This document shows, piece by piece, positions 9,560-38,962 of a stretch of 64,000 nucleotides of DNA. Origin of the DNA: Halichondria panicea (taxonomy: Eukaryota > Porifera > Demospongiae > Suberitida > Halichondriidae); contig NC_087380.1 of NCBI RefSeq assembly GCF_963675165.1, positions 7,574,517-7,638,516 of the forward strand. The letters are read 5' to 3'. A program made the translations under genes and the position numbers. The notes beneath the pieces were generated by a model that had not been told where the DNA came from, ran no database searches, and saw only the letters and a list, made by a program, of their open reading frames with translations. How positions within the stretch are numbered: position 1 is the stretch's first letter; every line of letters starts with the position of its first letter.

Positions 9560-12719
<3,160 letters not shown>

Positions 12720-13030: not shown

Positions 13031-16000
13031 ATGTCAAAGCACTTTAGATCTATTCTACGACTAGTCTCAGATGATGGAGTCGCCCCAGTTACACAGGGAG
13101 GGGAGAGACTGTCAATCGGCTTCAACAGCAGCTCTAAAACAGTCACATTTCCTGAGCAGCCCCGCCCCCCTTTTGCAGAAGGTAAATTAGCTAAGCCTAT
13201 TAATTGTGCTCATTTAATATTAATTGTTGTATTCCCTCTTTGGTAGCATCTACCGAATACAGTTTCGATGGAGTTTTTGCTGAGAAGCAATCAAGCGTCT
13301 ACAAGGACTCAGTTAGGCAGATTGTCGACAACGTCCTGGCTGGCTACAATGGCACTGTCATCTCAATGGCGACACAAGCCGCTCATCTGGTACGAACAGA
13401 AACTATGAACGCTCCGAAACGAGGTGCTATTTTGAAAGCATCACAGCAAATTTTCCGTCGTTTGATGAAATCTCGAAAGAAGCAAGCTCAGGCTTGCTCA
13501 AATCTTGTCGTATTATGTACTCTTGTAGTAGTCATAAACGAAAGTGTTCATGACCTACTAGCTGGGTTCTCGTCAGCAGGAAGCAACCATAAGATGAGTC
13601 AAGAAGATACCGCAATTCCACCCAAGCTTTCTTTGCCGGAGGAGGGGTGTTTGATGGTTGGAGCCTCACAGCAAGAAGTACAGGGTACAATCAAAATGGC
13701 ATCCCTACTGCAGTACGGGATGGACATGGAGAAGAAAATTTTAGAAGCCTACAGAAACGAGGATGATAGGAAAACAATCCATCACACAATCTGTACGATC
13801 TCAGTGGAGTACGCTCAGTTTGGTACGATGAATGCTCCTATTAGTGGTAGCCTCTCCTTTGTGGAAGTGTGCCCATCCGACCTCCTGTCATGTGATGTTG
13901 TCACATCCAAAGAATTAGTCTCTCTCCACACCTTTGTTGAGATGGTGAAATCACTCACACAAAACGGCCCCACAACTCTTAGTGCAGATTTTTCAACTGA
14001 ACTTACTTTTGAAAAATCCCCCGAAACTCTCGATCTCTGCAAAAAGTCCGTTTTAACACAGCTGCTCAAGGAAGCTCTCGGCGGAAACTGTAAAACTCTC
14101 CTATTAACATTTGCTAAAAAGCAATTTCCTGCTGAAAACTATTCCAAGATTCGTTCTGTTCTTGAACTAGCTTCTCGAGCTCGTTTAATACAAAACAGCC
14201 CCAACAGGAAGGACATAGCTGAGAAGGCACTAATGAATGCGTACATGCGAGAGTTGCACGACATGTATGGAGATGGCGGCAGTGCAGCTGAAGGAGACAA
14301 GAAGATTGTCCTAAAGCCTAAGCCAATTGCTAAATCTCCAACAAATTTGTCTGAAAATGGAAAAGATGAACGGTGAGCAAATTTGACATGTACCGCAAAA
14401 GCCTACCTAGCTATAATTATAGCAGCCACCCTTGAGCAGTATGGGACTCTGTGATTTTTGAGCATTAAACTTGTTGAATGTCCCTATTACAACTTATACA
14501 GTAGAATTATGCCACTATCAATGTTTTTCGTTTTTGTTTCTAGGCAGCACAACATGGAGATGGCAGCCTTTGCCCTGGTAACGGCTATAGAGGGAGGAGG
14601 GGAGGTGGGCACTGACAGTGACAGCTGCAGCGACGGTGAGTGCCTTAGGGAAATATCATCATCTTCTTTAATTTAATTGTTCACAGATGATTTGGACTCA
14701 TTGTCAAAAAGTGTGCAGCAGAAGTGCACAGGTAGCACTCGGCCTCGGAGCACTAAAGTGAAAATCAGACGACGAAAAACTAAGACGGAAGTAGGTAAAC
14801 AAGTTCACTGCATGCATTACTTAGTCATACATGCTGCAGCTGCACGCATAGACTAAGTTATTTCATGTAGACTCAGCAGAAAGCTTAAGTGCCAGTGGTT
14901 GTGATGATGATATTGGTGTTGATGCCCTGATCACCATCTTGCAAGACCCGGACAATGGTGCCCCCAGACCAACTGTGGCAGCACTGGACAATGTCAAACT
15001 GAGGCCAGGTATATATCACAAGTGAAGAAATTCACGTACATAATTATAGTAATGAGCGTTGATATTGATTACATCAGCTGTTTCGAGGCTTTATCATTAA
15101 ACTGTTGTTCTTGATAACCCCCCTCCCCACCCACACGCACACACATCATTAGACGCTGGTGCAATATTCTCGGGAGCTGCAATAGTGCGTTGGCTTATGG
15201 AGAGTGTGGCTGGTGTAGAGACAGAGGAACAAGCCGTGTGCTTAGGAGACCTCCTCCTGACCAGGGGGGCACTCGTACACTCTGAGGGCTCCATGTCAGT
15301 TATTTATAATGTGTTAGTACAATACAATTCATACATTGCTAAGCCTATGACTACCATTGCTATGACAACCATGTACCTCACAAGCCTGCAAGTATGTATA
15401 CCTATAATTATAGTACAGTCTGTTTTGCCAGTTCAAATTTTTCGCGGGAATTCATTTATTTTGTTGGCAGGGTGTTTGCGAATGCCGAGTCGTTGTTTTA
15501 CTATGCAAAGGAGGGGCGACCAAATCGCAGAACTCTAAGTCAACAGGAAATACAGTCCCTATTAGCTCAGGCCCGGGCTGCCATGGCAACAGAGGTGACG
15601 GCTGGCGAGAGATCACATGACAGGGGCAATAAAGAGAGGCTGCACAATATTCACCAGGTGGATATGGATTCTTCAAGAGATTTGCAGTCACAAATAAATC
15701 TGAAATCTACCACTCCTAATGTGCATGAGATCTACAATTGTGTTGAGGGAGAAACTGGAGAAGTTCTGAATACTGGTACAATTGAGAGTGTACAATCAAT
15801 CAACTCTGAGACTTCTTTGTCGTCCTCCTACCCCATCACTTCTCTGTCGTCCTTCCAGACCACTCCTCCATCCTCTTCTTGGTCTGTTAGCGGCAGTGCA
15901 GGTGAAGTGTCTAGTCTACTGTGCAGTGCTGATGGAGCAGTGGAGGGACTAACCCCTCCTGGGGGTCGTAAGAGCGTGAGGTTTCAGGACGACAAGGTAA

Positions 16001-18141
16001 TCAAGTTGATGTATGTTTAGAACGTATGTAATTAGTATAAGAATGTGCATGCGGTTATAATTGCTAAAACTGTACTAATAGAGTGTCAGTGTTGATGAGG
16101 AGACCACTAGTGATCCATACACAGCACCAGTCGAGTGTCTCCCCACAGTGCACACATTGGAAAAGTAAGTACTCCTCTCATCACTTCATGGGCTTGTTTT
16201 CGGAGCTAACTCTGACTCTCCATAATTTGCAGTGGGTTAGAAAGGTCCAATTTCTAAAATATGGATTAATTTTAGTAGCTGCTATCTTCCGCCCCCTCCC
16301 CTCACAGCACACTCAACTATCCCCACCCCCTCCACACACACACACACACACACACCCTCACAGCACACTCAACTATCCCCACCCCCTCCACGGAGCAGTG
16401 GCCATTGGTAAGAGACCCGGAGTGGTGCGTGAGCTAGTCATGATGTTTGGGATCAACAAAGAGGACGATCACAAACGCACTCCTCTCATGTTTGCTGCCC
16501 TCGGCAACAACAAACGATCGTCCGTTTCCACGCTGATCGAGTGTGGGGCTGACTTGAACAGACAGGATGTTAGTGGTCTCACGGCTCTACATGTGGCCTG
16601 CTACCATGGCAACAAGGCCGCAGCAAACGTACTGCTGAATAAAGGAGCAGTAATCGAAATCTTAGATGCGAAAGTGAGTCTATGTTGAAGTGGACAATGC
16701 ATAGATTAGAGGAGCTGGATATGCCTAATAATTATAACTTGTCTGCATCTTGTACCCTGTGAATGTACACAGACTTGCCATTACTACAGGGTCACAGTGC
16801 ATTTCATTGGAGCATGGTTCCCGAGACACACAGCTGCCTCCAACTGCTATTGAGGGTGATAAGGTCTCTTGAGCTAGCTAGCTACATATGAGTGCAATCT
16901 ACAATTTCTGGCTGATTTTGATAGCCCATATTAGCTTGCATGAGTTTGGGACGTCCATGCAATTTAAATGGCATAATTATTTTTGAGCAGCTAAAAGAAG
17001 GCCCTATTAATACATGACATGATTCACCTTGTACAGGCATGCCTCTCCAAGTATTCTGAGGGAAGCTGACAGTGGCGGACTAACCGCTCTACACTGGGCC
17101 ATTCATTTCAAGAGACCACATCATCTTGCACTGCTATTGAAGAAGTGAGTACATAATACAATAGCACTGAATAGAAGTGAAACTAAGCAATTATTTGTGT
17201 GATAGCACTGCTTACTTAACCTCAGGGCATGTATAGCCACAGGAGGCATGCAATAAAGATGACTGTGTATGTGTATGTGTACGTGTATTCAATAGTTGAT
17301 TTAGAAGTGAAAGCAATCAATTGTGTGATAACTTTCTCCTGCATGTTTGGTCTCATTATCATTACATCAGACTCTCTGCTGTACCCATGCATGCACTGTA
17401 GGTATGGTGACCCTGTTCACTTGGACAAGGAGGGGAGGTCTCTAGTCACGTACGCACTGCAGAAGGAATCACTCGACTGCATGAAGGTTCAACAAATACG
17501 TAGTTTAATTTATATTAGGTACAAACACTATAACCTTTCAAATGATGTGCCAGAGTTACTGACTGCTTTACGTAGACTTTACCATAATTATATAGCTGAT
17601 AAAGTACGCTGCTCCCCCCCCCACACACACACAGGTGTTGATATCCGCCCACCCCACACTCCTCACATTCCCTGACATCACACAGAGCACCCCCTTCCAT
17701 CACGCCAGTGCACACCCCTCACCACACCCACTCCTATATCTCCTCTCTCACGAGAGCACGCCCCTGTTAATCAACGCCACCAACAGCTACCAACGTACTC
17801 CCCTCCATTGTGCCGTGGCCTACAACAGTGTGTACAATACAGACCTATTGCTACGGCGAGGGGCGGACGTACAACTGTGCGATAATGAGGGGAAAACCCC
17901 TCTTGATTACGCCCACGAGCTGGAGAATGGAGAGGACATGCTCGCAATACTAGAAGGTGATATTAAATTACATAACTAATTTGTAGGAATGCATGTACGT
18001 ACGTATAATAATTATTATTGATCAATTAGTTTTTTATATACAGGACACGCCTCCTTTGAGTGGACTGATGTGGAGAGTTCACGACCTCACGAACAGAACG
18101 ATTTAGCACCACCTGGTAGTAGATTCTGTACCGTCTCGTAG
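13031..18141 (+). CDS. Degenerate kinesin motor + DEP + ankyrin-repeat protein
   Basis: Fourteen in-phase exons: 13031-13181, 13247-14372, 14544-14635, 14687-14794, 14871-15008, 15153-15294, 15471-15996, 16082-16164, 16364-16673, 16790-16863, 17037-17144, 17402-17486, 17635-17956 and 18044-18141; 1120 residues. Residues 1-375 follow a kinesin motor fold: YSFDGVF, LAGYNGT, LVVVINESVHDLL, HHTICTISVE, LTQLLKEALGGNCKTLLLT and LASRARLIQNSP. The nucleotide-binding parts are gone: after YNGT comes VISMATQ instead of the P-loop, SSRSH is replaced by KTIHH, and DLAGSE by EVCPSD. Residues about 540-605 resemble a DEP domain (FSGAAIVRWLMESV, AVCLGDLLLTRGALVH, SLFYYAKE). A Ser/Thr-rich linker follows, then ankyrin repeats at about 789-1085 (RTPLMFAALGN, GLTALHVACYHGN, RTPLHCAVAYN). 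Likely a non-hydrolysing scaffold (inference). I know no named orthologue. Confidence 0.82.
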
Positions 18142-19587: not shown

Positions 19588-22407
19588 TTACACTCTCTCT
19601 TTCTCATTCAGTGCAGCTATAGTGATTGACCCACCTTTAATGGACATTGAGTTGTTGTCCTTCATGGTGGAGAGAGTGTCCTCTGAGCTGGGATTGCGGG
19701 TTATGGTGGTTAGGTTGACAGCTGTGTCTTTTCCAGTAACCTTCTGATTCGGTTTATTCTGGTCGGGCCTGAAGAAAATAATAAAGAGTTTCGGCCCAAA
19801 CAAACAGCCGAGAACGGCAAAAGCACTCAACACAGAGGCTAGCCCAGTGATGGCATTTTGAATCTCTTGTCTCTTTTCGATTATAAAGTAAGCATACAGT
19901 CCAACAAAAGCAGCCCAAATGATTGCAATAATGAAAGTACAAAACGAAACAAATTTGGCTTCATTGAAATTTTTCGGATATTTGAAGCTCAGCACACCGA
20001 GTATGGTAGACAAAATAATGAGGATTGTTTCGTAGATGGCACAGATTATCAAAATAGCAACGTGATCGACAACACAAGACACGACGATTTCCGGGAGTTT
20101 ATTTTGATCTTCACGATTCGGTCGCACATTTCTGGAGACGCCTGGATGTACAACAATTAAACCTACGACCACAATAAGTACTTGACCAAATATTATTATG
20201 CTCGTGAAAATCACTTGATAGTAAGGCTCCGTGAATCTAGTTCGTGACAAATTTACAGACCTGTAAAATATTCTCGTTACTCGAACAATCTTGACCAACA
20301 GAGCGCCAAATATAATTGAATAACATACCCAAAATCCCATTCTCTGTACGACACAGACTCCCGGCTCAGGAGGACTCACATACACAAATGCCAGAATAAA
20401 GATCAGTCCGATACCACTGAGTAAAGTAATCATTTGTTCTCTTCCTGAAGATTTTACAACCGGTGTCTTCCAGTATATAACATACATTATGGTGACGGCT
20501 GCAACAGCTATGAGGCCCAACACAGCAAGTATTATCACAATAATCGAGAATGTATCACTATGGCGAATAAACGACTCTGGTATTGGAACACACGAGTCGC
20601 TGCCAACCAGCGGATTGTTTCCCCAAGTCTCCCCTCCACACTGCAGACACTGCATGCCCATGGGATTTGAGGAATAGTTACCGCCTACACACGGGTCACA
20701 TGTCCCACAACACGAAGACTGTACAATTCTTCTGTACTCACCCACCTCACATCTCCCACACTGCGATATCTGAGGTTGCCTGCGAATGGAATTAGTTGAA
20801 TTGTCTATTCCGAATTGAAGATTTTGCATATCAAAAATTGTTAGTGCTTCAAGATTGCTATCGTTCAGTACAGAACTGTCCCATATTCCTGCTCTATAAA
20901 GGAAGTAATCTCCATTTCTGATATAACCCTTTGCTTGATAGTTTAATATCTCATATTTCCCCTCAATGTTTCCTTGGCTATCGAAAACGATTCTGTTTCC
21001 AGTGATATTATTAACAAAGTCCAACTGACGGATGTACTGAAGCAGTACGCTTCCTGTTAGTTGTTGAGATTGTCCAGCACACGATCGGTTGGTTTTGTCC
21101 CAAACTATTGGTAACTGACAATTGTCGTGGAGAAAGTTCTGTAGAGCATGTGCATAAGCATACACGGCATCTATTACCAGGGGAACCAAATTTCCTTGAT
21201 GGTATTGAGGTAGACCTGTCACACTCTCATTCTGTGAGCATACGTTTAGTACGCTTGTATTTAATATGTCACAGTCTGCAAAGGCGGCGTAATATTCTGT
21301 GAACCACGGATTTCTGGCATTGCTATCGATAGTAACTTGTGAGAAGTATTCGTTGAATTGTGTCACATGTTCAGTCAAGGGTGCAATTCCGTATAAACCA
21401 GCAGCTGTCTCACTAAACTGGCTCACGATATTATTAGACCTTGCCCAAGAATCACTAGCTATCCAAGTGAATCGAGTTCTGGCTGACGTCGAGTTTGCAA
21501 TTCTACGAAGCACTTGCTCAGCGTTGTCTAGAGAAGCAAACACAATTACAACATTTGCTGACGAGGCAATGAGTGCATCAGCTAACGTATCGAAATCCGA
21601 GTCCACGAAACTATCCTCGATTCCCATATCCAGATCGATACAAATACTATTGTTTGAAGCTAATTCCCTAAATTCAGATATTGCAGGATCTCCGTACGAA
21701 TTTCGTGAGTAGATAGTAGAAACGTATGTCCAGTTGAAATTCAGTAAAATGTCGAGCATAGCTCTAACCTGTTGGTCATCTGGTGGAATTGTTCGGTAGA
21801 AATATTCGTAGCGATCTCGATTGCTCAAAATAGCCGAGGTAGATGAATAACTGATTTGAGGGATTTGGAATAACCGTGCTAGACTAGCTACCGGGACACT
21901 GACTCGGCTTGCAGCTGCACCAATGATACCAGAAGTGGGAGGGTTAATGGAGACATTATTCACCGTGTTGTTAGGGCCCATACATGACAACTGACAGCTT
22001 TGAATGTCCAATTCACTTCCTGTGATTACCAAATCAATCGTTTCGTCCAGTCCTATATTCTCACTGATGCATGTGTCTCGAATGTCATAGCCTATTTCTA
22101 GCCCTGCCAAAAGTTCTGAGTCGTTGTTTATAAGGTCGATTGCAAAAAGCATTGCTTCCATCATCTGCAGACCGTCCTCAGTTGCAATTGCTCCGCATTG
22201 ACCTCCACCTGAACCGGGATCATCTGAATGAACTGGAATGAGTCCTCCAAACACAAAATCTTTGTTTATTCTGTTCTGAGCTCCTCGTATGCGATTGTCT
22301 GTCGTACGCAAAACTTCCGATGATTGTGCATAATTAAATTGCAATGCAGCGACAGTTGAGAGTGTTACCAGTAGAAGGATGAACAAAGATGGTGTCATTG
22401 TGAGCAT
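19588..22407 (-). CDS. Family C GPCR, metabotropic-glutamate-like receptor, copy 1
   Basis: Intronless, 939 residues. Signal peptide at about 1-21; Venus-flytrap ligand domain to about 545; cysteine-rich domain at about 547-605 (CGRCEVGEYRR, CCGTCDPC, CLQCGG); seven hydrophobic segments from about 614 to 875, including the mGluR-typical NFNEAKFVSF before TM6; cytoplasmic tail ending KERV. By eye against mGluR1, several glutamate-site positions are kept: Ser/Thr in YSSTS, Asp in PPDDQ, Tyr in SYGD and Asp in ASDSW. The position of the mGluR Arg that grips the distal carboxylate is Met82 here but Arg82 in copies 2 and 3. The ligand is therefore uncertain. Plasma-membrane location is family knowledge. 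The ATG at 22405-22407 was chosen because a hydrophobic signal peptide follows. Confidence 0.95.
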   Translation of the reverse strand: MLTMTPSLFILLLVTLSTVAALQFNYAQSSEVLRTTDNRIRGAQNRINKDFVFGGLIPVHSDDPGSGGGQCGAIATEDGLQMMEAMLFAIDLINNDSELLAGLEIGYDIRDTCISENIGLDETIDLVITGSELDIQSCQLSCMGPNNTVNNVSINPPTSGIIGAAASRVSVPVASLARLFQIPQISYSSTSAILSNRDRYEYFYRTIPPDDQQVRAMLDILLNFNWTYVSTIYSRNSYGDPAISEFRELASNNSICIDLDMGIEDSFVDSDFDTLADALIASSANVVIVFASLDNAEQVLRRIANSTSARTRFTWIASDSWARSNNIVSQFSETAAGLYGIAPLTEHVTQFNEYFSQVTIDSNARNPWFTEYYAAFADCDILNTSVLNVCSQNESVTGLPQYHQGNLVPLVIDAVYAYAHALQNFLHDNCQLPIVWDKTNRSCAGQSQQLTGSVLLQYIRQLDFVNNITGNRIVFDSQGNIEGKYEILNYQAKGYIRNGDYFLYRAGIWDSSVLNDSNLEALTIFDMQNLQFGIDNSTNSIRRQPQISQCGRCEVGEYRRIVQSSCCGTCDPCVGGNYSSNPMGMQCLQCGGETWGNNPLVGSDSCVPIPESFIRHSDTFSIIVIILAVLGLIAVAAVTIMYVIYWKTPVVKSSGREQMITLLSGIGLIFILAFVYVSPPEPGVCVVQRMGFWVCYSIIFGALLVKIVRVTRIFYRSVNLSRTRFTEPYYQVIFTSIIIFGQVLIVVVGLIVVHPGVSRNVRPNREDQNKLPEIVVSCVVDHVAILIICAIYETILIILSTILGVLSFKYPKNFNEAKFVSFCTFIIAIIWAAFVGLYAYFIIEKRQEIQNAITGLASVLSAFAVLGCLFGPKLFIIFFRPDQNKPNQKVTGKDTAVNLTTITRNPSSEDTLSTMKDNNSMSIKGGSITIAALNEKERV

Positions 22408-23487
22408 CGTGTACCTGCATGTGTATTAAAGAATTTATATGTTTATACCATATCAAATGTGCAATCACTAATAGTTTCATAGCTTATTATATCTAGCTGC
22501 CATACAATATATAACACTGACACTTACTGATTATGCAAGCAGCTATACTGAGCTAGATCTGTAACATTAACTTCCAAGTGCAACTTTTATAGCAGACTTT
22601 TGTTATACATGACATCGACAGTGAACTTCCTCCGCTTTGCTAAGCAAGGAAGAAATTTACCCACAGCATAATTATGCGCATGCGCATAGATACAGTGTCA
22701 GAGGAATGAATGACTCCCCGGTGGGAGTGACCTAGCCTCGTTCCCAGGCCTTACTTTTTCTTGCTGTTGTCACTGTTCATCCATAAATCACTACATGTAG
22801 AAAGACATAGTGAGGCAGCAAAGAAAGAAATGGGCGTACAGTTAAAGAAAAGTAAGGCCTGGTTTGGGAAATCGCGTGATCCACAAGGATTTTTATGAAC
22901 GTGGGCGATATGTAGCCCACAATCGTGACGTAAGGTATTCTCCCACGCATTCAGAGTTAATAAGACTGTATATGTACTGAGACAACCACCAAGCTGTGCT
23001 GCAAGTCAGATCAGAGAACCAGCGTGGCCAGCTCTAGTGGCAGTAGCTACCTGCTATATATGATAATGATGACTAAGCTATTCTTGATCTATACTAGCAT
23101 GTAGAAAGACACAAGAAAAGGTAATAGTCTGATAGAATCTGAACACACAATCTAGACTAGTAGATCATCTAAGGCATATAGCTAGCTATAGTGCTTGCAA
23201 ACTTCCAGTTCCAAGTCCATGTCCAGCTTGCTGCAGGCAAAGTTTTATTAGTCATAGATATCTGCGTGGGCAGTCCAACATCTCTAGCTCAGCATGCCCA
23301 CGCTCATTTTCACCCTTCTACCACCCTTCTACCCTCACGCGACTTCCCGATACAGGCTCTCCTTTTTCCTAATTCTACGTCTATTTCTTTCTTTATTCCT
23401 CCAATTAATACCGTATTTTATGTCATTCCTGCCGCCCTAAGGTGTGGGGGACTCCCCAAGGAGTGAATGACTCCCTATGCGCATGCC
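22408..23487. other. Non-coding region upstream of receptor copy 1
   Basis: The first ~290 bp match the upstream regions of copies 2 and 3 (promoter side, ending around a GCGCATGCGCAT palindrome). Then comes a MITE-like insert (22,733-22,874) and AT-rich DNA with no gene seen up to the foldback element. Confidence 0.65.
22733..22874. repeat. MITE-like inverted-repeat element
   Basis: The left end TAGCCTCGTTCCCAGGCC with TTACTTTTTCTT is matched inversely by AAGAAAAGTAAGGCCTGG near the right end, about 140 bp in all. Same terminal family as 8,108-8,188 and 34,068-34,816. Confidence 0.6.
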
Positions 23488-25490: not shown

Positions 25491-25629
25491 AGTGTGGTCC
25501 TACTGTAGCTAGTGTACAGAGCCTATAGTGTGGTCCCACTGTAGCTAGTGGTGGACTTATATTTTCAGGTTTGCATAGTGAAAGGGTTTGTATACCATAT
25601 AGAGTACGCTGCTCCCCCCACACACACTG

Positions 25630-26128
25630 GTGTTGATATCCGCCCACCCCACACTCCTCACATTCCCCGACATCACACAAAGCACTCCCTCCATCACGCC
25701 AGTGCACACCCCTCACCACACCCACTCCTCTATCTCCTCTCTCACGAGAGCACGCCCCTGTTAATCAACGCCACCAACAGCTACCAACGTACTCCCCTCC
25801 ATTGTTCCGTGGCCTACAACAGTGTGTACAATACAGACCTGTTGCTACGGCGAGGGGCGGACGTACAACTGTGCGATAATGAGGGGAAAACCCCTATTGA
25901 TTACGCCCACGAGCTGGAGAACGGAGAGGACATGCTCGCAATACTAGAAGGTGATATTAAATTACATAACTAATTTGTAGGAATCCATGTACGTACGTAT
26001 AATAAATTATAATTGGTCAATTATATACAGGACACGCCTCCTTTGAGTGGACTGATGTGGAGAGTTCACGACCTCACAAACAGAACGATTTAGCACCACC
26101 TGGTAGTAAATTTTGTACCGTCTCGTAG
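25630..26128 (+). pseudogene. Degraded copy 2 of ankyrin-gene exons 13-14
   Basis: Near-identical to 17,635-18,141 (exon 13 copy 25,630-25,950, then intron and exon 14 copy). Three things argue that it is dead. The acceptor reads CACTG instead of CACAG. One base is lost early in the exon (the copy has CTCCCTCCATCACG where the gene has CCCCCTTCCATCACG), which shifts the frame. No upstream exons are present; they are replaced by the foldback element and the G-rich minisatellite. Confidence 0.8.
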
Positions 26129-27794
26129 CTCTCAATTTTAATCCTTTAATTTTTCTTAATTAAATTATTATAGAAGAATTATCAAATCAAAGAAACTGTC
26201 AAATGACAGGGGAAACATATACCATACAACTATATACAAATGGTGAGATTATGGAAAAGCTATTGATTGATTTATCACACTGAAAAAAACTGAAATGTTC
26301 TGAACTAGTGGAAACAGTCACATGCATGAAATGAATGCTGGCCGTTCATTGGCTGACGGAATCATCTGATGAGTCCATGTTCTTCAGGGAGGGGGGGGTA
26401 GGGGCGTATGCAGTCTTAGTTGTCATGGAAACTGTGGGTGTGCGTGAGTATGTGTGTGTGAGTGGGTGGGTGAGTGGGTGTGTGTACTGTAGTAGAGAGA
26501 AAGCTAAATATTGAAGCTGTAAACATTATATCTTAGATTAAGGTTTGTATTTTCAGATAAAGTAAATAAACTTTCAGTTTGAGTAGACTGAGCACACACC
26601 AGCTTATAGCGGGTAACTTTCGAGGGTCTAATTTTTTCCACAGATTAACCATTTTGTAAATTTTGCGTATAATATAAATTGGTAAAATTCCCAAAAATAT
26701 TAGCCCCTGAAAAGCTATACGATAGCTCTAGAAGCCACCAATGCTCAGGTTGTTTGCATAGCAACATTGTATGGTGGTTTTGTGGTAATGCAGTCTAGTT
26801 GTTCGCCTAACCGTTATAAAAGCGAAAACTCGGCCTGGGATCGAGGCTACTGTTTGCATAGACCTTGCAAGATACTAATCAACGCACTGCAGTTGTTCGC
26901 CTAACCGTTATAAAAGCGAAAACTCGGCCTGGGATCGAGGCTATGCAAACAGCTGCTACAATAAACAAGTTTCAATTCCAGTAGCAAAAATATTAGCCCC
27001 TGAAAAGCTATACGATAGCTCTAGAAGCCACCAATGCTCAGGTTGTTTGCATAGCAACATTGAATGGTGGTTTTGTGGTAATGCAGTGAGTGTTGATTAG
27101 TATTTTGCAAGGTCTATGCAAACAGCTGCTACAATAAACAAGTTTCAATTCCAGTAGCAAAGGTCTGTAGGGAGATGTCTATCTTCTCTGACCAACAGAA
27201 ATGTAGTGGTATAGGTTAGAGGTATTATTCATATTTTAAACACACTCAAGTGCATCACATTTAGCAGTTAGTAAATGGACTTTTTGTAAGTAGATACACA
27301 AAGTGATATTGTAGTAGTCTATAGGTGAAAGATAGAAGTTGCATCCATTATGAAAGCGGTATATACTGTGCACAATCAACATACAGCTATACTATACATT
27401 ACACAAGAGCATCTGTTACATCACGATAAGATATTCTAAAAACATAGCAAGTTTAATTTGGGACAAAGCAATAACCTAAAGCTCACAACAGCTGCATGTG
27501 TGTGTGTGTGTGTTGACACTCTCTCTTAGCTATTGCTTGAGTAGTTAAACCAACCACACGCACACACACATACGCATACTATAGGGATGCTTAGACTTAT
27601 TTCCACCCAGTCCAACTGAATTTACAGTCTTAATAATAATTTTAATTTTCGTATGATGCTCTACTACAATACGAAAAATACGAAAATAACCTGCTATACG
27701 GTATATACAAGGGGGAGGCTTCTTGGAAATGAATAAGTTACCACATAATAAACTGAAGTACGTACATGCACATTCACTGAGGGGGAGGCTTTTT
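26129..27794. other. Non-coding spacer, copy 2 of the duplicated unit
   Basis: Homologous to 18,142-19,587. It additionally carries two ~50-bp copies of a MITE end (26,797-26,849 and 26,893-26,943) flanking a short inverted piece, and a second copy of the surrounding 150 bp (26,990-27,160). No gene seen. Confidence 0.7.
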
Positions 27795-30740
27795 TTATTG
27801 GTAAAAATTATAAATTGTAGTACACAAATGGAAGTAAAGTAAATGTACAGTTGAGGAAGGATTCCATGTAGGTACCATTAATGCTACATTTGATAAAATC
27901 CCAATTGAAAACAAAGTACAGTTACTCTCTCTCTCATTCAGTGCAGCTATAGTGATTGACCCACCTTTAACAGACATGGAATTGTTGTCTTTCATAGTGG
28001 AGAGAGTGTCCTCTGAGCTTGGATTGCGGGTTATGGTGGTTAGGTTGACAGCTGTGTCTTGGCTTCCAGTAACCTTCTGATTCGGTTTATTTTGGTCAGG
28101 CCTGAAGAAAATAATGAAGAGTTTCGGCCCAAACAGACAGCCGAGAACGGCAAAAGCACTCAACACAGAGGCTAACCCAGTGATAGCATTCTGTATCTCT
28201 TGTCTCTCTTCGATTATAAAGTAAGCATACAGTCCAACAAAAGCAGCCCAAATTATTGCAATAATGAAAGTACAAAATGAAACAAATTTGGCTTCATTGA
28301 AATTTTTCGGATATTTGAAGCTCAGCACACCGAGTATGGTGGACGCAATAATGAGGATTGTTTCGTAGATGGCACAGATTACCAAAATAGCAACGTGATC
28401 GACAACACAAGACACAATGATTTCTGGGAGTTTATTTTGATCTTCACGATTCAGTCGCACATTTCTGGAGACGCCTGGATGTACGACAATTAAACCTATG
28501 ACCACAATAAGTACTTGACCAAATATTATTATGCTCGTGAAAATCACTTGATAGTAGGGCTCTGTAAATCTAGTTCGTGACAAATTTGCAGACCTGTAAA
28601 ATATCCTCGTTACTCGAACAATCTTGACCAATAGAGCACCAAATATAATTGAATAACAGACCCAAAATCCCATTCTCTGTACGGCACAGACTCCTGGCTC
28701 AGGAGGACTCACGTACACAAATGCTAGAATAAAGATCAGTCCGATTCCACTGAGTAAAGTTATCATTTGCTCTCGTCCTGAAGATTTCACAACAGGTGTC
28801 TTCCAGTATATAACATACGTTATGGTGACGGCTGCAACAGCTATGAGGCCCAACACAGCAAGTATTATCACAATAATCGAGAATGCATCACTATAGCGAA
28901 TAAACGAGTCTGGTATTGGAACACACGAGTCGCTGCCCACCAGTGGATTGTTCCCCCAAGTCTCCCCTCCACACTGCAGGCACTGCAAGCCCATGGGATT
29001 AGAGGAATAATTACCGCCCACACACGGGTCACATGTCCCACAACACGAAGACTGTACAATTCTTCTGTACTCACCAACCTCACATCTCCCACACTGCGAT
29101 ATCTGAGGTTGCCTGCGAATGGAATTAGTTGAATTGTCTATTCCGAATTGAAGACTTTGCATATCGACAATTGATAGTGCTTCAAGATTGCTATCGTTCA
29201 GTACAGAACTGTCCCATATTCCTGCTCTAGAAAAAAAGTAATCTCCATTTCTGATATCACCATTTGCTTGATAGTTTAATATCTCATATTTCCCCTCAAC
29301 ATTTCCTTGGCTGTCGAAAATGATTCTGTTTCCAGTGATGTTATTAACAAAGTCCAACTGACGTATATATTGAAGCAGCACACTTCCTGTTAGTTGTTGA
29401 GATTGTCCGGCACACGATTGATTGGTTCTGTCCCATTGTATTGGTAACTGACAATTTTCGTGGAGAAAGTTCTGTAGAGCATGTGCATAAGCATACACGG
29501 CATCTATTACCAGGGGAACCACATTTCCTTGTTGGTATTGAGGTAGACCTGTCACACTCTCATTCTGTGAGCATGCGTTTAGTACGCTGGTATTCAATAC
29601 GTCACAGTTGGCAAAGGCGGCGTAATATTCTGTGAACCACGGATTTCTGACGTTGCTATCGATGGTAAGTTGTGAGAAGTATTCGTTGAATTGTGTCACA
29701 TGTTCAGTCAAGGGTGCAATTCCATATAAACCAGCAGCAGTCTCACTAAACTGATTCACGACACTATTAGACCTTGCCCAAGCATCGCTAGCTATCCAAG
29801 TGAATCGAGTTCTTGCTATCGTCGAGTTTGCAATTCTACGAAGCACTTGCTCTGCGTTGTCTTGAGAAGCAAACACAATTACAATATTTGCTGACGAGGC
29901 AATGAGTGCATCAGCTAACGTATCGAAATCCGAGTCCACAGAAATATCCTCGATTCCCATGTCCAAATCGATACAAATGCCATTTTTTGATGCTAATTTC
30001 CTAAATTCAGTTATTCCAGGCTCTCCGTACGGATTTCGTGAGTAGATAGTAGACACGTACGTCCAATTAAAATTCAGCAAAATGTCGAGCATAGCTCTAG
30101 CCTGTTGGTCATCTGGTGGAATTGTTCGATAGAAATATTCGTAGCGATCTCGATTGCTCAAAATAGCCGAGGAAGATGCATAACTGATTTGAGGGATTTG
30201 GAATAGCCGTACTAGACTAGCTACCGGGACACTGACTCGACTGGCAGCTGCACCAATGATACCAGAAGTGGGAGGGTTAATGGAGATATTATCCACCATG
30301 TTGTTAGGGGCCATACTTGACAACTGGCAGCTTTGAATGTCCAATTGACTTCCCGTGATTACCAAATCAATCGTTTCGTCCAGCCCTATATTCTCACTGT
30401 TGCATGTGTCTCGAATGTCATAGCCAATTTCTAGCCCTGCCAAAAGTTCTGAGTCGTTGTTTATAAGGTCGACTGCAAAAAGCATTGCTTCCATTCTCTC
30501 TAGTCCTCTCTCAGTCCGAATTGCTCCACATTGACCTCCACCTGAACCGGGATCATCTGAATGAACGGGAATGAGTCCTCCAAACACAAAATCTTTGTTT
30601 AGTCTGTTCTGAGCTCCTCGTATGCGATTGTCTGTCGTACGCAAAACTTCCGATGATTGTGCATAATTAAATTGCAATGCAGTGACAGTTGAGAGTGTTA
30701 CCAGTAGAAGGATGAACAGAGATGGTGTCTTTGTGAGCAT
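27795..30740 (-). CDS. Family C GPCR, metabotropic-glutamate-like receptor, copy 2
   Basis: Intronless, 981 residues, collinear with copy 1 and very similar throughout: signal peptide, Venus-flytrap, cysteine-rich domain, seven TM segments. Residue 82 is Arg (AGA), as in mGluRs. Near the C-terminus, where copy 1 reads NEKERV-stop, a net 4-nt loss shifts the frame and adds about 37 residues that end in NFYQ. The ligand domain differs from copy 1 at scattered sites (for example TERGLERMEAM). The frame is fully open with no disabling change, so it is probably expressed. It could instead be a recent duplicate drifting at its tail. Confidence 0.94.
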   Translation of the reverse strand: MLTKTPSLFILLLVTLSTVTALQFNYAQSSEVLRTTDNRIRGAQNRLNKDFVFGGLIPVHSDDPGSGGGQCGAIRTERGLERMEAMLFAVDLINNDSELLAGLEIGYDIRDTCNSENIGLDETIDLVITGSQLDIQSCQLSSMAPNNMVDNISINPPTSGIIGAAASRVSVPVASLVRLFQIPQISYASSSAILSNRDRYEYFYRTIPPDDQQARAMLDILLNFNWTYVSTIYSRNPYGEPGITEFRKLASKNGICIDLDMGIEDISVDSDFDTLADALIASSANIVIVFASQDNAEQVLRRIANSTIARTRFTWIASDAWARSNSVVNQFSETAAGLYGIAPLTEHVTQFNEYFSQLTIDSNVRNPWFTEYYAAFANCDVLNTSVLNACSQNESVTGLPQYQQGNVVPLVIDAVYAYAHALQNFLHENCQLPIQWDRTNQSCAGQSQQLTGSVLLQYIRQLDFVNNITGNRIIFDSQGNVEGKYEILNYQANGDIRNGDYFFSRAGIWDSSVLNDSNLEALSIVDMQSLQFGIDNSTNSIRRQPQISQCGRCEVGEYRRIVQSSCCGTCDPCVGGNYSSNPMGLQCLQCGGETWGNNPLVGSDSCVPIPDSFIRYSDAFSIIVIILAVLGLIAVAAVTITYVIYWKTPVVKSSGREQMITLLSGIGLIFILAFVYVSPPEPGVCAVQRMGFWVCYSIIFGALLVKIVRVTRIFYRSANLSRTRFTEPYYQVIFTSIIIFGQVLIVVIGLIVVHPGVSRNVRLNREDQNKLPEIIVSCVVDHVAILVICAIYETILIIASTILGVLSFKYPKNFNEAKFVSFCTFIIAIIWAAFVGLYAYFIIEERQEIQNAITGLASVLSAFAVLGCLFGPKLFIIFFRPDQNKPNQKVTGSQDTAVNLTTITRNPSSEDTLSTMKDNNSMSVKGGSITIAALNERESNCTLFSIGILSNVALMVPTWNPSSTVHLLYFHLCTTIYNFYQ

Positions 30741-31079
30741 CGTGTACCTGCATGTGTATTACAGAATTTATATACCATATCAAATGTGCAATCACTAATA
30801 GTTTCATAGCTTAGCTACAATAATTATTATATCTACATGTAGCTGCCATACAATATATAACACTGACACTTACTGATTATGCAAGCAGCTACTGAGCTAG
30901 ATCTGTAACATTAACTTCCAAGTGCAACTTATAGCAGACTTTTGTTATAAAGTAGAGACATGATATCTACAGTGAACTTCCTTGCCTTTGTGCTTGATAA
31001 TGCAATGAAGGAAGAAATTACCACAGTATATGCGCATGCGCATGGATACTAACTGCTCTACACGTACACTGGGCCATTC

Positions 31080-31133: not shown

Positions 31134-31344
31134 GCCATTCGAGACCACATCATCTTGCACTGCTTTGACGAAGTGAGTACATAATTATACAATTGCACAC
31201 TGCTTTAATATAAAGTTAAGTTGTGTGATAGCACTGTGCTATTATAGTCTCGGGGCTTATAGCCACACAGGGGGCATGCGGTAAAGCTGACTGTGCATGT
31301 ACATGTATGTGTGTGTCTGTATGCATGCGTGTATATTCAAATAT

Positions 31345-32237
31345 TACGGTGGCCCTGAGTGCTACTCCAGTTGGTAGTTGGCAGTTGGTAGTTGGCAGTT
31401 GGCAGTTGGTAGTTGGCAGTTGGCAGTTGGTAGTTGGCAGTTGGTAGTTGGCAGTTGGCAGTTGGCAGTTGGCAGTTGGTAGTTCGCAGTTGGCAGTTGA
31501 CAGTTGGCAGTTGGTAGTTCGCAGTTGGCAGTTGGTAGTTCGCAGTTGGCAGTTGGTAGTTCGCAGTTGGTAGTTCGCAGTTGGCAGTTGGTAGTTGGCA
31601 GTTGGCAGTTGGTAGTTCGTGACCTTTAAACTTTGCAGTTAGCAAATGTTGTATATACATGTAGATCTTTGCACTGCCTCTAATCTTTTAACCATAACTT
31701 TAAATAGCCTCAATAGAATCTAAAAGTGCCATGCAAAACCTGTTTCTATAATTCCCCCCTCCCTGCTGGGATCTGGGAATATAGGTAGAGGATTAGACTT
31801 GAAATGATCTCCCTACCTACATGTACATATAAGATTAATATTGACGTCTTAGGCCAGCTAGATATCGGTGCCAGTATCATAATTTAAAAGCAGGCTAATT
31901 ATTGTTGCAAAGTTTAAAGGTTACGAACTGCCAACTCCCAACTCCCAACTGCCAACTCCCAACTGCCAACTCCCAACTGCCAACTCCCAACTACCAACTA
32001 CCAACTCCCAACTGCCAACTACTAACTCCCAACTCCCAACTACCAACTCCCAACTCCCAACTGCTAACTGCCAACTCCCAACTCCCAACTGCCAACTACG
32101 TGTTTGAACTATCAAGTAGCAACTGCGAACTACCAACTACGCATTTGAACTATCAAGTAGCAACTGCGAACTACCAACTACGCGTTTGAACTATCAAGTA
32201 TGAACTACCAACTAGAGTAGCGCTCAGGGCCACCGTA
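31345..32237. mobile_element. Foldback-like element FB2, arms of 7-bp repeats, 6-bp target duplication
   Basis: The ends TACGGTGGCCCTGAG (left) and CTCAGGGCCACCGTA (right) are exact inverted repeats. The left arm is (TTGGCAG/TTGGTAG)n (about 31,370-31,620) and the right arm is the inverse CCAACTG/CCAACTC repeat (about 31,925-32,215, ending with three 40-bp units). Internal ends CTTTAAACTTTGCA and TGCAAAGTTTAAAG are also inverted. AAATAT flanks both sides (31,339-31,344 and 32,238-32,243). The paralogous intron at about 17,285-17,305 lacks the element. No transposase. Confidence 0.85.
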
Positions 32238-34067
32238 AAATATAGAGCTGATTTAGAAGGGAAAGCAATCGTTTGTGTGTGTGATAACTATTAATCCTGT
32301 TTGTGCATGTGTGGTCTCATTAACCAGACTCTCTGCTGTACCCATTCATGCCGCACTGTAGGCATGGCAACCCTGTTCACTTGGACAAGGAGGGGGAGGT
32401 CTCTACTCTAGTCACGTATGCACTGCAGAAGGAATCACTCGACTGCATGAGCGTATATATTAAGTTCATGTACTAGACCTAGCTGATGTAAATCCTATTG
32501 CTTTAGAGGCTGCAACCCCCTTTCACCTCACTTTAAAAGCATGCAAGAAGCTGAAATGATATGTGTAGACTAGTGTATACGTTACAGAGCCTATATATAT
32601 AGTGTGGTCCCACTGTAGCTAGTGGTTGACTTGTGTTTTCTCTACATATAGTGAAGGGTTGTTTGTATACCATATAGAGTACGCTGCTCCCCCCACACAC
32701 ACACAGGTGTTGATGTCCGCCCACCCCACACTCCTCACATTCCCCGACATCACACAGAGCACCCCCCTCCATCACACCAGTGCATACTCCTCACCACACC
32801 TACTTCTATATCTCCATCACACCAGTGCATACTCCTCACCACACCTACTTCTATATCTCCTCTCTCACGAGAGCACGCCCCTGTCAATCAACACCACCAA
32901 CAGCTACCAACGTACTCCCCTCCATTGTGCCGTGGCCTACAACAGTGTGTACAATACAGACCTGTTGCTACGACGAGGAGCGGACGTACAGCTGTGCAAT
33001 AATGAGGCCCCTATTGATTACGCCCACGAGCTGGAGAACGGAGAGGACATGCTCGCAATACTAGAAGGTGATATTACTTGTATAACTGAACAACTTGGAC
33101 TTATATAATTTTTTACTTCTATAGGACTTTGAGTGGACTGATGTGAAGAGTTCACGACCTCACAAACTGAACGATTTAGCACCACCTGGTAGTAGATTCT
33201 GTACCGTCTCGTAGCTCAATTTTAATAATAATAATTATTAAACAAATCACTTTATAAATAAAATTAATTATGGAATTATCAAGAAATGTCAAATGACGGG
33301 GAAGAACACACACATGCAACTATACGATAATTATAATAAGATTTACCACACTGAATTAATACAAAAACTAAAACGGTCACATGATATCAATGCTGGCCGT
33401 TGATTGGCTGAGTGGGCGACTACAAATCATCTGATGAGTCCATGTTCTTCGGGGAGTGGGGGGGAGGGACGTACGCATTCTTAGTAGCCATGGAAACTGT
33501 GTGTGTGTGAGGGGGTGGGTGAGGGGGTGGGTGAGTGGGTGTGTAGTAGAGAGAGCAAGTATTGAGCTGTAAACATTATAGATTTGTATTTAACTTTCAG
33601 TTTCATAATCTCTTAGTAGACAGATCACACATGCAGTAGTGAGGTCTAAACAAGTTTCAATATATAGCAAACAGGCAGGGCAGGGGAAAAAATATCTCTT
33701 AACCAACGAAATGTAGTGGCTAGTACAGCAGACTCTGATCTAAACACAGGCTCAAGTACATTACATCGATCTGATGGTCTTCATGTAGTTTTGTAAGTAC
33801 GTACACAAAGTGACAATTATTGTAGTAGTATAGGTGATAGATAGAAATTGCTGACAGCAATACTTTGCCAATCAACATAGAGCTATAATTATTATATACA
33901 TCATAAAAGAACATCTGTTTCATCATATATATATGCAGCAGCTAGTATAACTTGAGACAAAGTCACTAGCCTAAAGCTCATAACAGCTGCACAACAGTAT
34001 TTTGATAATTTACTCCGAACAATGATATACCGGTACCTCTGCATTGTAATTATAATAACAGAGACGC

Positions 34068-35717: not shown

Positions 35718-38516
35718 CTATAGTGACCCACCTCTCACAGTCATGGAGTTATCATCCATCATAGTGGAGAGAGTCTCGTCCAACATGTTGGAGCTTGGAT
35801 TGCGGGTTATGGTGGTTAGGTTGACAGCTGTGTCTTGGCTTCCAGAAACCATCTGATTCTGTTTGTTCTGGTCAGACCTGAAGAAAATTACAAAGAGTTT
35901 CGGCCCAAACAGACAGCCAAGAACGGCAAAAGCACTCAACACAGAGGCTAACCCAGTGATAGCATTCTGTATCTCTTGTCTCTCTTCGATTATAAAGTAA
36001 GCATACAGTCCAACAAAAGCAGCCCAAATTATTGCAATAATGAAAGTACAAAATGAAACAAATTTGGCTTCATTGAAATTTTTTGGATATTTGAAGCTCA
36101 GCACACCGAGTATGGTGGACGCAATAATGAGGATTGTTTCGTAGATGGCACAGATTACCAAAATAGCAACGTGATCGCCAACACAAGACACAACGATTTC
36201 CGGGAGATTATTGTTATCTTCACGATTCAGTCGTGTATTTCTGGAGACGCCTGGATGTACGACAATTAAACCTATGACTACAATAAGCACTTGACCAAAT
36301 ATTATTATGCTCGTGAAAATCACTTGATAGTAGGGCTCCGTGAATCTAATTGGTGACAAATTTGCAGACCTGTAAAATATCCTCGTTACTCGAACAATCT
36401 TAACCAACAGAGCGCCAAATATAATTGAATAACAGACCCAAAATCCCATTCTCTGTACAGCACAGACTCCCGGTTCCGGAGGACTCACGTACACAAATGC
36501 TAGAATAAAGATCAGTCCGATACCACTGAGTAAAGTAATCATTTGTTCTCTTCCTGAAGATTTCACAACAGGTGTCTTCCAGTATATAACATACGTTATG
36601 GTGACGGCTGCAACAGCTATGAGGCCCAACACAGCAAGTATTATCACAATAATCGAGAATGCATCACTATAGCGAATAAACGACTCTGGTATTGGAACAC
36701 ACGAGTCGCTGCCCACCAGTGGATTGTTCCCCCAAGTCTCCCCTCCACACTGCAGACACTGCAAGCCCATGGGATTAGAGGAATAGGTATCGCCCACACA
36801 CGGGTCACATGTCCCACAACACGAAGACTGTACAATTCTCCTGACCTCACCAACCCCACATCTCCCACACTGCGATATCTGAGGCTGCCTGCGAATGGAA
36901 TTAGTTGAATTGTCTATTCCGAATTGAAGACTTTGCATATCGACAATTGATAGTGCTTCAAGATTGCTATCGTTCAGCACAGAGCTGTCCCATATTCCTG
37001 CTCTATAAAGGAAGTAATTTCCATTTCTGATAGTACCATTTGCTTGATAGTTTAATATCTCATATTTCCCCTCAATGTTTCCTTGGCTGTCGAAAACGAT
37101 TCTGTTTCTAGTGATATTATTAACAAAGTCCAACTGACGGATGTACTGAAGCAGCACACTTCCTGTTAGTTGTCGAGATTGTCCAGCACACGATCGGTTG
37201 GTTCTGTCCCAAACTATTGGTAACTGACAATTGTCGTGGAGAAAGTTCTGTAGAGCATGTGCATAAGCATACACGGCATCTATTACCAAGGGAACCACAT
37301 TTCCTTGTTGGTATTGAGGTAGACCTGTCACACTCTGATTCTGGGAGCATGCGTTTAGCACGCTTGTATTTAATACGTCACAGTCTGCAAAGGCGGCGTA
37401 ATATTCTGTGAACCACGGATTTCTAACGTTGCTATCGATGGTAAGTTGTGAGAAGTATTCGTTGAATTGTGTCACATGTTCAGTCAAGGGTGCAATTCCA
37501 TATAAACCAGCAGCAGTCTCACTAAACTGGCTCACGATATTATTAGACCTTGCCCAAGCATCACTAGCTATCCAAGTGAATCGAGTTCTTGCTATCGTCG
37601 AGTTTGCAATTCTACGCAACAGATGCTCTGCGTTTTCTTGAGAAGCAAACACAATTACAACATTTGCTGACGAGGCAATGAGTGCATTAGCTAACGTATC
37701 GAAATCCGAGTCCACGGAACTATCCTCGATTCCCATGTCCAAATCGATACAAATGCTATTGTTTGAAGCTAAGTCCCTAAATTTAGATATTGCAGGATCT
37801 CCGTACGAATTTCGTGAGTAGATAGTAGACACATACGTCCAATTGAAATTCAGTAAAATGTCAAGCATAGCTCTGACCTGTTGGTCATCTGGTGGAATTG
37901 TTCGGTAGAAATATTCGTAACGATCTCGATTGCTCAAAATAGCCGAGGTAGATGAATAACTGATTTGAGGGATTTGGAATAGCCGTACTAGACTAGCTAC
38001 TGGGACACTGACTCGGCTGGCAGCTGCACCAATGATACCAGAAGTGGGAGGGTTAATGGAGACATTATTCACCGTGTTGTTAGGGCCCATACATGACAAC
38101 TGACAGTTTTGAATGTCCAATTCACTTCCTGTGATTACCAAATCAAATGTTTCGTCCAGTCCTATATTCTCACTGAGGCATGTGTCTCGAATGTCATAGC
38201 CTATTTCCAGCCCTGCCAAAAGTTCTGAGTCGTTGTTTATAAGGTCGATTGCAAAAAGCATTGCTTCCATTCTCTGCAGACCGCCCTCAGTAGCAATTGC
38301 TCCACATTGACCTCCACCTGAACCGGGATCATCTAAATGAACAGGAATGAGTCCTCCAAACACAAAATCTTTGTTTATTCTGTTCTGAGCTCCCCGTATG
38401 CGATTGTCTGTCGTACGCAAAACTTCCGATGATTGTGCATAATTAAATTGCAATGCAGCGACAGTTGAGAGTGTTACCAGTAGAAGGATGAACAGAGATG
38501 GTGTCATTGTGAGCAT
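35718..38516 (-). CDS. Family C GPCR, metabotropic-glutamate-like receptor, copy 3
   Basis: Intronless, 932 residues, same architecture as copies 1 and 2 and alignable over the whole length. Arg82 (AGA) is kept. The tail differs: relative to copy 1 (GGSITIAAL to KERV), a 4-nt loss after GGTGGGTCA brings TAG in frame, so the protein ends RGGSL. The cysteine-rich domain has local changes (CGVGEVRRI, GDTYSSN) and the TM5 approach has VGDHVAI instead of VVDHVAI. No disabling mutation. Divergent from the EH-domain gene, with 446 bp between start codons. Confidence 0.94.
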   Translation of the reverse strand: MLTMTPSLFILLLVTLSTVAALQFNYAQSSEVLRTTDNRIRGAQNRINKDFVFGGLIPVHLDDPGSGGGQCGAIATEGGLQRMEAMLFAIDLINNDSELLAGLEIGYDIRDTCLSENIGLDETFDLVITGSELDIQNCQLSCMGPNNTVNNVSINPPTSGIIGAAASRVSVPVASLVRLFQIPQISYSSTSAILSNRDRYEYFYRTIPPDDQQVRAMLDILLNFNWTYVSTIYSRNSYGDPAISKFRDLASNNSICIDLDMGIEDSSVDSDFDTLANALIASSANVVIVFASQENAEHLLRRIANSTIARTRFTWIASDAWARSNNIVSQFSETAAGLYGIAPLTEHVTQFNEYFSQLTIDSNVRNPWFTEYYAAFADCDVLNTSVLNACSQNQSVTGLPQYQQGNVVPLVIDAVYAYAHALQNFLHDNCQLPIVWDRTNRSCAGQSRQLTGSVLLQYIRQLDFVNNITRNRIVFDSQGNIEGKYEILNYQANGTIRNGNYFLYRAGIWDSSVLNDSNLEALSIVDMQSLQFGIDNSTNSIRRQPQISQCGRCGVGEVRRIVQSSCCGTCDPCVGDTYSSNPMGLQCLQCGGETWGNNPLVGSDSCVPIPESFIRYSDAFSIIVIILAVLGLIAVAAVTITYVIYWKTPVVKSSGREQMITLLSGIGLIFILAFVYVSPPEPGVCAVQRMGFWVCYSIIFGALLVKIVRVTRIFYRSANLSPIRFTEPYYQVIFTSIIIFGQVLIVVIGLIVVHPGVSRNTRLNREDNNNLPEIVVSCVGDHVAILVICAIYETILIIASTILGVLSFKYPKNFNEAKFVSFCTFIIAIIWAAFVGLYAYFIIEERQEIQNAITGLASVLSAFAVLGCLFGPKLFVIFFRSDQNKQNQMVSGSQDTAVNLTTITRNPSSNMLDETLSTMMDDNSMTVRGGSL

Positions 38517-38962
38517 CGTGTACCTGCATGTGTGTTAGGGAATATATATACAACTCTATACCATATCAGATGTGCAATCACCAATAGTTTCATAGCTGGC
38601 CGGCTGTAGCTACAATCAACAAATATCTTAAAGCTAGCATTCCAATGATTAACACTTACTGATTATGCAAGCAGCTAGATCTCTAACCTCCAAGTCCAGA
38701 CTTTTGTTATACAGTACGCAGCTTGTGTAGAGGTGACATGACATGGACAGTAACTTCCTTTTCAATTAAGACCATGGAGCAGACACGCCCACCCTTTTTC
38801 TGCATGAGCCACGCCCCCTCTAGTTTACCGGGTGCAATTTGCAAAGGAGCTAGCTGTGAAGTGTTGCTATTTGCAGGCAGGCTAAAGAACTTCACTGAAG
38901 TCAAGATATACATATTCTCTCCAAGTGTGTGTCAAGTGCGTGTGAGGGATAAGAAGTGGACC

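Follow-up and report, generated by a model that had tools for sequence, protein, structure and literature searches.

Among kinases and GTPases, pseudo-enzymes are a familiar phenomenon, but they are rare among kinesins. Kinesin-2 motors have an active ATPase and a coiled-coil stalk, and in the yeast kinesin-14 proteins Cik1 and Vik1 the head is C-terminal, on a coiled coil with Kar3; to our knowledge, KIF26 (kinesin-11) carries neither a DEP domain nor ankyrin repeats. Non-catalytic kinesin heads have already been described: the motor homology domain of Cik1/Vik1 is presented as unable to bind or hydrolyse ATP (PMC4338441), the divergent motor domain of KIF26 as microtubule-binding and devoid of ATPase activity (PMC7862435), and pseudoKinesin-21 as a named pseudo-kinesin group currently unique to fungal taxa (PMC5076506). 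Here we characterize a gene of the sponge Halichondria panicea, located at 13031-18141 on the + strand of a 64,000-nucleotide stretch of DNA (the window; C4:7574517-7638516 in an assembly of 131 Mb and 39 contigs), whose product is homologous to kinesins, has lost the nucleotide motifs and displays the same full-length architecture, kinesin-DEP-ankyrin, in Ephydatia muelleri. Its likeness to KIF26 and pseudoKinesin-21 is one of description, and unlike Cik1/Vik1 it has its head at the N-terminus with the DEP domain and ankyrin repeats behind. Searches of the open-access literature (titles and abstracts, which miss most subscription papers) found no account of a pseudo-kinesin with DEP and ankyrin repeats, in agreement with the initial annotation of the window, whose author knew of no described kinesin with such an architecture.

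Rebuilding the gene from the DNA gave 14 exons with GT-AG borders in 13/13 introns, phases that all agree, a sole stop at 18141 and a product of 1120 residues, which bears out the 14 exons in phase originally proposed. Nearly the entire motor-like domain is held by exon 2 (13247-14372, 1126 bp), a reading frame that none of 2000 base-composition shuffles left open. The kinesin-like head spans residues 1-395, and the Pfam Kinesin profile matches residues 50-365 (E 1.4e-21, 77.3 bits against a cut-off of 29.3); together with the predicted fold, this upholds the initial annotation in its claim that the first ~375 residues follow the kinesin fold. It had also placed a DEP domain and an ankyrin array behind the motor. 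The DEP profile (PF00610) matches residues 544-597 at E 4.3e-6 with 27.0 bits, below the cut-off of 32.7, and Ank_2 exceeds the ankyrin cut-off (E 8.5e-33, 113 bits), with nine ankyrin repeats counted by eye at residues 793-1096. For the Ephydatia orthologue the Pfam scores are 83 bits for Kinesin and 41.1 bits for DEP, the latter above the cut-off, and the ankyrins are matched too. The proposed domain order therefore stands as that of one gene, the same in Ephydatia, with the Kinesin profile above its cut-off in the window protein and the DEP profile above its cut-off in the Ephydatia protein only.

Relatives were sought among 5.8 billion proteins, in whole-protein runs that scored the best 7989 and 7987 candidates by common words, the words being drawn from the first 500 residues. 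These runs returned 15 and 18 matches, of which three (P0001-P0003) are family members; the remaining matches among the candidates scored had kinesin or ankyrin domains, never both. A search with the DEP region gave 0 matches from 445 candidates and also missed the known orthologue P0001, hence it has no negative value. P0001 is Em0011g73a of Ephydatia muelleri (EukProt; the name is built like the E. muelleri gene names in PMC7385117), a protein of 1157 residues in which BLASTP finds 36% identity over 58% of the query. The search of other sponges suggested by the initial annotation has thus yielded the same domain order in a second species, and because that order stands in an independent gene model, the reading of the locus as two genes or as a mis-join is rejected. 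Aligned from start codon to tail, the two proteins are 41% identical, with 42% in the motor, 30% in linker 1, 52% in the DEP region, 22% in linker 2 and 51% in the ankyrins. Identities this uneven along an end-to-end alignment are typical of a single protein that is old, under selection and loose in its linkers. The Ephydatia protein has a longer low-complexity linker. The ENA entries P0002 and P0003 show the same motor, 81-82% identical to Ephydatia, followed by intron-like sequence, and the four family sequences are mutually 39-82% identical. By eye, intron 2 is apparently at the same place, since P0002 and P0003 follow the family to '..KPPSEK' and '..KPSEK', respectively, before the intron-like sequence begins, and P0003 resumes at VEMAASAL, the match of window exon 3.

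The four family sequences were compared with P0012, a kinesin in which every motif is preserved. Its P-loop, GQTGTGKT, is replaced by ATQAAHLVRT in the window protein and by GVKGSG-FS, GVKGSG-LS and GIKGSG-QS in the other three, so that the GxxxxGK[ST] consensus is absent from all four; Ephydatia thus keeps a P-loop-like GVKGSG without the Lys-Thr pair, whereas the window protein keeps none. Switch I (SSRS..H) has become DRKTIHH in the window protein and PEQGLHH in Ephydatia, and switch II (LVDLAGSER) has become FVEVCPSDL, that is, EVCPSD in place of DLAGSE, with QVGAAD in Ephydatia; both switches are also lost in P0002 and P0003. The RxRP motif of strand 1 and the HIPYRDSKLT motif of L12 are gone in all four. 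This alignment confirms the loss of P-loop, switch I and switch II reported initially, and since the losses are common to the four sequences, the death of the motor is old. Judged from these motifs, the window protein is almost certainly not an ATP-driven motor, and it would be expected neither to hydrolyse ATP nor to walk.

To get a view of the constraint acting on the head, identities were counted in segments whose borders we placed from the motif positions. Between the window protein and Ephydatia, 5/35 positions of the nucleotide segments are identical compared with 126/263 in other segments (Fisher p 1.1e-4), and in the switch II-helix 4-L12 cluster, through which active kinesins chiefly contact microtubules, the count is 12/51 compared with 119/247 elsewhere (p 1.1e-3); these two tests overlap because switch II sits in both sets. 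The other two family sequences gave the same result against the window protein, and these pairs are not independent because the three spongillid-like sequences are 81-82% identical. Active kinesins displayed the opposite trend: in 5 of the 10 possible pairs all odds ratios were above 1 (1.69-2.56 for the nucleotide segments, 1.30-2.49 for the cluster), with p <0.05 in 4/10 tests. The least conserved segments of the family are the P-loop (0-1/13), L12 (5-6/29), switch I (2/10), switch II (3/14), helix 4 (4-5/18) and the L8 hairpin (4-8/23), and the most conserved are helix 5 (10/13), the beta6-L10-beta7 hairpin (15-19/26), the neck (16-17/26), the beta4-beta5 region (13-14/21) and helix 6 (10/18). 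This distribution suggests that constraint has been lost on the ATP site and on much of the microtubule interface, and that the core and the neck are still constrained.

A structure model of exon 2, of medium confidence, adopts the kinesin motor fold according to Foldseek and VIA-align matches, so the structure prediction put forward as a check in the initial annotation also came out in favor of a kinesin. The best matches of the N-terminal domain, both by sequence and by Foldseek, are kinesin-2 motors (OSM-3/KIF17, KIF3). In the PDB score ranking OSM-3 (79.3 bits) and KIF3C (77.5) are followed by kinesin-5 (74.2) and kinesin-8 (74.0), all within about 5 bits, and with a kinesin-2 lead of a few bits only the scores do not appear to settle the subfamily of origin. 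The neck is modelled as a helix in both models, with a predicted local distance difference test (pLDDT) value mostly <50 there. No coiled-coil stalk was predicted behind it, the Ephydatia model showing no helix at residues 376-474 (low confidence). With a pLDDT of 45, the full-length Ephydatia model is too poor for judging the DEP fold. When the DEP piece was searched against PDB sequences, all the matches were weak, namely DEPDC5 (E 2.5e-4), an engineered repeat protein (E 7e-4), P-Rex1 (E 0.0044), RGS7 (E 0.038) and Dishevelled-1 (E 0.11), and neither DEPDC5 nor P-Rex1 has a stretch that passes alone.

We give an even chance to the view, drawn from sequence and models, that the locus is one intact animal gene for a kinesin-derived pseudo-motor that low-complexity linkers join to a DEP domain and some nine ankyrin repeats, in which the fold is kept as a protein-binding module of a scaffold. 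The kinesin fold would have been retained as a rigid module conserved in the neck, helix 5 and the beta6-L10-beta7 hairpin, with the neck and the hairpin as candidate partner surfaces, the DEP part may bind a protein partner and the ankyrin array another, and since further partners would be bound by these two parts, the whole protein would act as a scaffold, in signalling or at the cortex, and not as a transporter. In both species the core of the DEP domain is acidic (net charges -5 and -6), which makes charge-driven binding to lipids less likely and favors a protein as the partner, and the long low-complexity linkers together with the lack of a predicted stalk, itself of low confidence, point to a beads-on-string appearance. 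Tentatively, and with slightly less confidence than an even chance, we regard the family, seen so far only in sponges, as one of retired kinesins, in which a motor fold without ATP site or microtubule constraint serves purely as a protein-interaction domain before the DEP and ankyrin parts and is no longer cytoskeletal. Several points weigh against the reading given an even chance: helix 5 and helix 6 are conserved; helix 2 is basic in the window protein (+9), compared with +4 in the other three family sequences; and the input alignment of the exon 2 model included five real kinesins, which tilts it toward the kinesin fold. To these can be added that microtubule binding in the absence of ATPase activity is described for Kif26a (PMC7862435) and also for Cik1/Vik1 (PMC4338441).

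The chief rival, which we consider less likely, follows from these examples: a dead motor that grips tubulin without ATP in the manner of Kif26a would make the protein a static scaffold on microtubules or cilia, whose DEP and ankyrin parts bring signalling proteins to the flagella of choanocytes or to transient microtubules. Microtubule binding by non-catalytic motor domains has precedents (PMC4338441, PMC7862435), helix 5, which forms part of the microtubule face, keeps 10/13 positions and helix 6 keeps 10/18, and the closest solved relatives by score are the kinesin-2 motors OSM-3 and KIF3C; however, that lead is just a few bits, the switch II-helix 4-L12 cluster is poorly kept (12/51) and HIPYRDSKLT is lost in 4/4 sequences. 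The microtubule- or membrane-bound scaffold suggested in the initial annotation is left without support by the poor conservation of this cluster and by the acidic DEP core, neither of which excludes binding. Less probable still is that the protein serves as a non-catalytic head and uses its neck to pair with an active kinesin, in the way Cik1/Vik1 partner Kar3. Although the neck is conserved (16-17/26) and modelled as a helix at a pLDDT mostly <50, no stalk is predicted after it (at low confidence), the head is N-terminal, unlike that of kinesin-14, and no close active paralogue was seen in the genome, where the sole other motor match has E 0.06 among the 5 candidates scored. That the locus is a kinesin gene in recent decay, or that its gene model wrongly fuses two genes, seems very improbable: truncated 3'-end copies are found close by, one of them frame-broken, and the nucleotide sites are lost, but 14/14 exons are open, the order is the same in Ephydatia and the motif losses are common to four sequences as little as 39% and at most 82% identical.

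Exon 1 (13031-13181, + strand as are all the others) contains the start codon and the first strand of the kinesin fold, where the RxRP motif is lost, and has its MSKHF start in common with Ephydatia, and exon 2 encodes residues 51-425, almost the whole kinesin-like domain and the neck, as assigned by Pfam, the structure model and Foldseek. Linker sequence is encoded by exon 3 (14544-14635), with a conserved EMAA.AL motif, and exon 4 (14687-14794), acidic first and basic after. The DEP region begins in exon 5 (14871-15008) by alignment with Ephydatia, has its core in exon 6 (15153-15294) according to Pfam, and ends in exon 7 (15471-15996), where a long low-complexity linker follows; exon 8 (16082-16164) is linker as well. 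Ankyrin repeats 1-3 lie in exon 9 (16364-16673), which is 68% identical with Ephydatia, repeat 4 in exon 10 (16790-16863), repeats 4-5 in exon 11 (17037-17144), repeats 5-6 in exon 12 (17402-17486) and repeats 6-9 in exon 13 (17635-17956), and exon 14 (18044-18141) holds the C-terminal tail and the stop. An exact 37-base repeat (16299-16335 and 16355-16391) duplicates the acceptor and beginning of exon 9; the acceptor copy at 16299-16335 is 56 bases upstream, so its use would shift the frame of this exon.

The gene is flanked by a protein kinase gene (kinase exon 11619-11924, Pfam Pkinase), PKA-like by eye, on one side and by a minus-strand class C receptor gene on the other. No second full copy was found in the genome, the motor query, the better test of copy number, giving only the match at E 0.06 already mentioned among the 5 candidates scored. 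A genome search with the whole Ephydatia protein returned the window locus and ankyrin matches elsewhere (best 40 of 630 candidates) and missed the truncated 3' copies, so it gives no copy count. The first of these, a tandem copy of exons 13-14 (25599-26801, + strand), is 93% identical and is a pseudogene fragment: one base of exon 13 is missing and the acceptor has changed. The second (31141-33580, + strand) consists of pieces of exons 11-14, 76-93% identical, with the start of exon 14 damaged by lost bases and an exon 13 that is altered but still open because the lengths of its insertion (45 bases) and deletion (6 bases) are divisible by three. Their use as a neutral control was dropped; one is frameshifted and the other's exon 13 is still open. 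DNA comparison within the window showed no motor or DEP exons duplicated alongside them. On the minus strand, class C receptor genes (ANF_receptor and 7tm_3) that look intronless occur three times in tandem, at 19591-22425, 27798-30758 and 35721-38534, with DNA about 93% identical, and the 3'-end pieces were carried along by the tandem duplication of this receptor gene. The cluster recalls the large metabotropic GABA receptor clusters of Ephydatia, a sponge that has a chromosome-level genome and is readily cultured in the laboratory (PMC7385117). Elsewhere in the genome there are DEP-domain exon groups, two at C4:4997938-5000029 and four at C3:7800775-8079293 scoring 50-52 bits. The window also contains a tandem array at 46049-47087, with a unit of ~44 bases and copies ~98% alike, and an open frame at 3-1007 with a PIF1-like helicase domain behind an LRR1 pleckstrin-homology match, which may be ordinary for PIF1.

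For Kif26a and Cik1/Vik1, retention of microtubule binding is described (PMC7862435, PMC4338441). In contrast, if in this sponge family the ATP site and the microtubule face have indeed drifted with the core and the neck held fixed, the kinesin fold would be reusable as a plain binding module.
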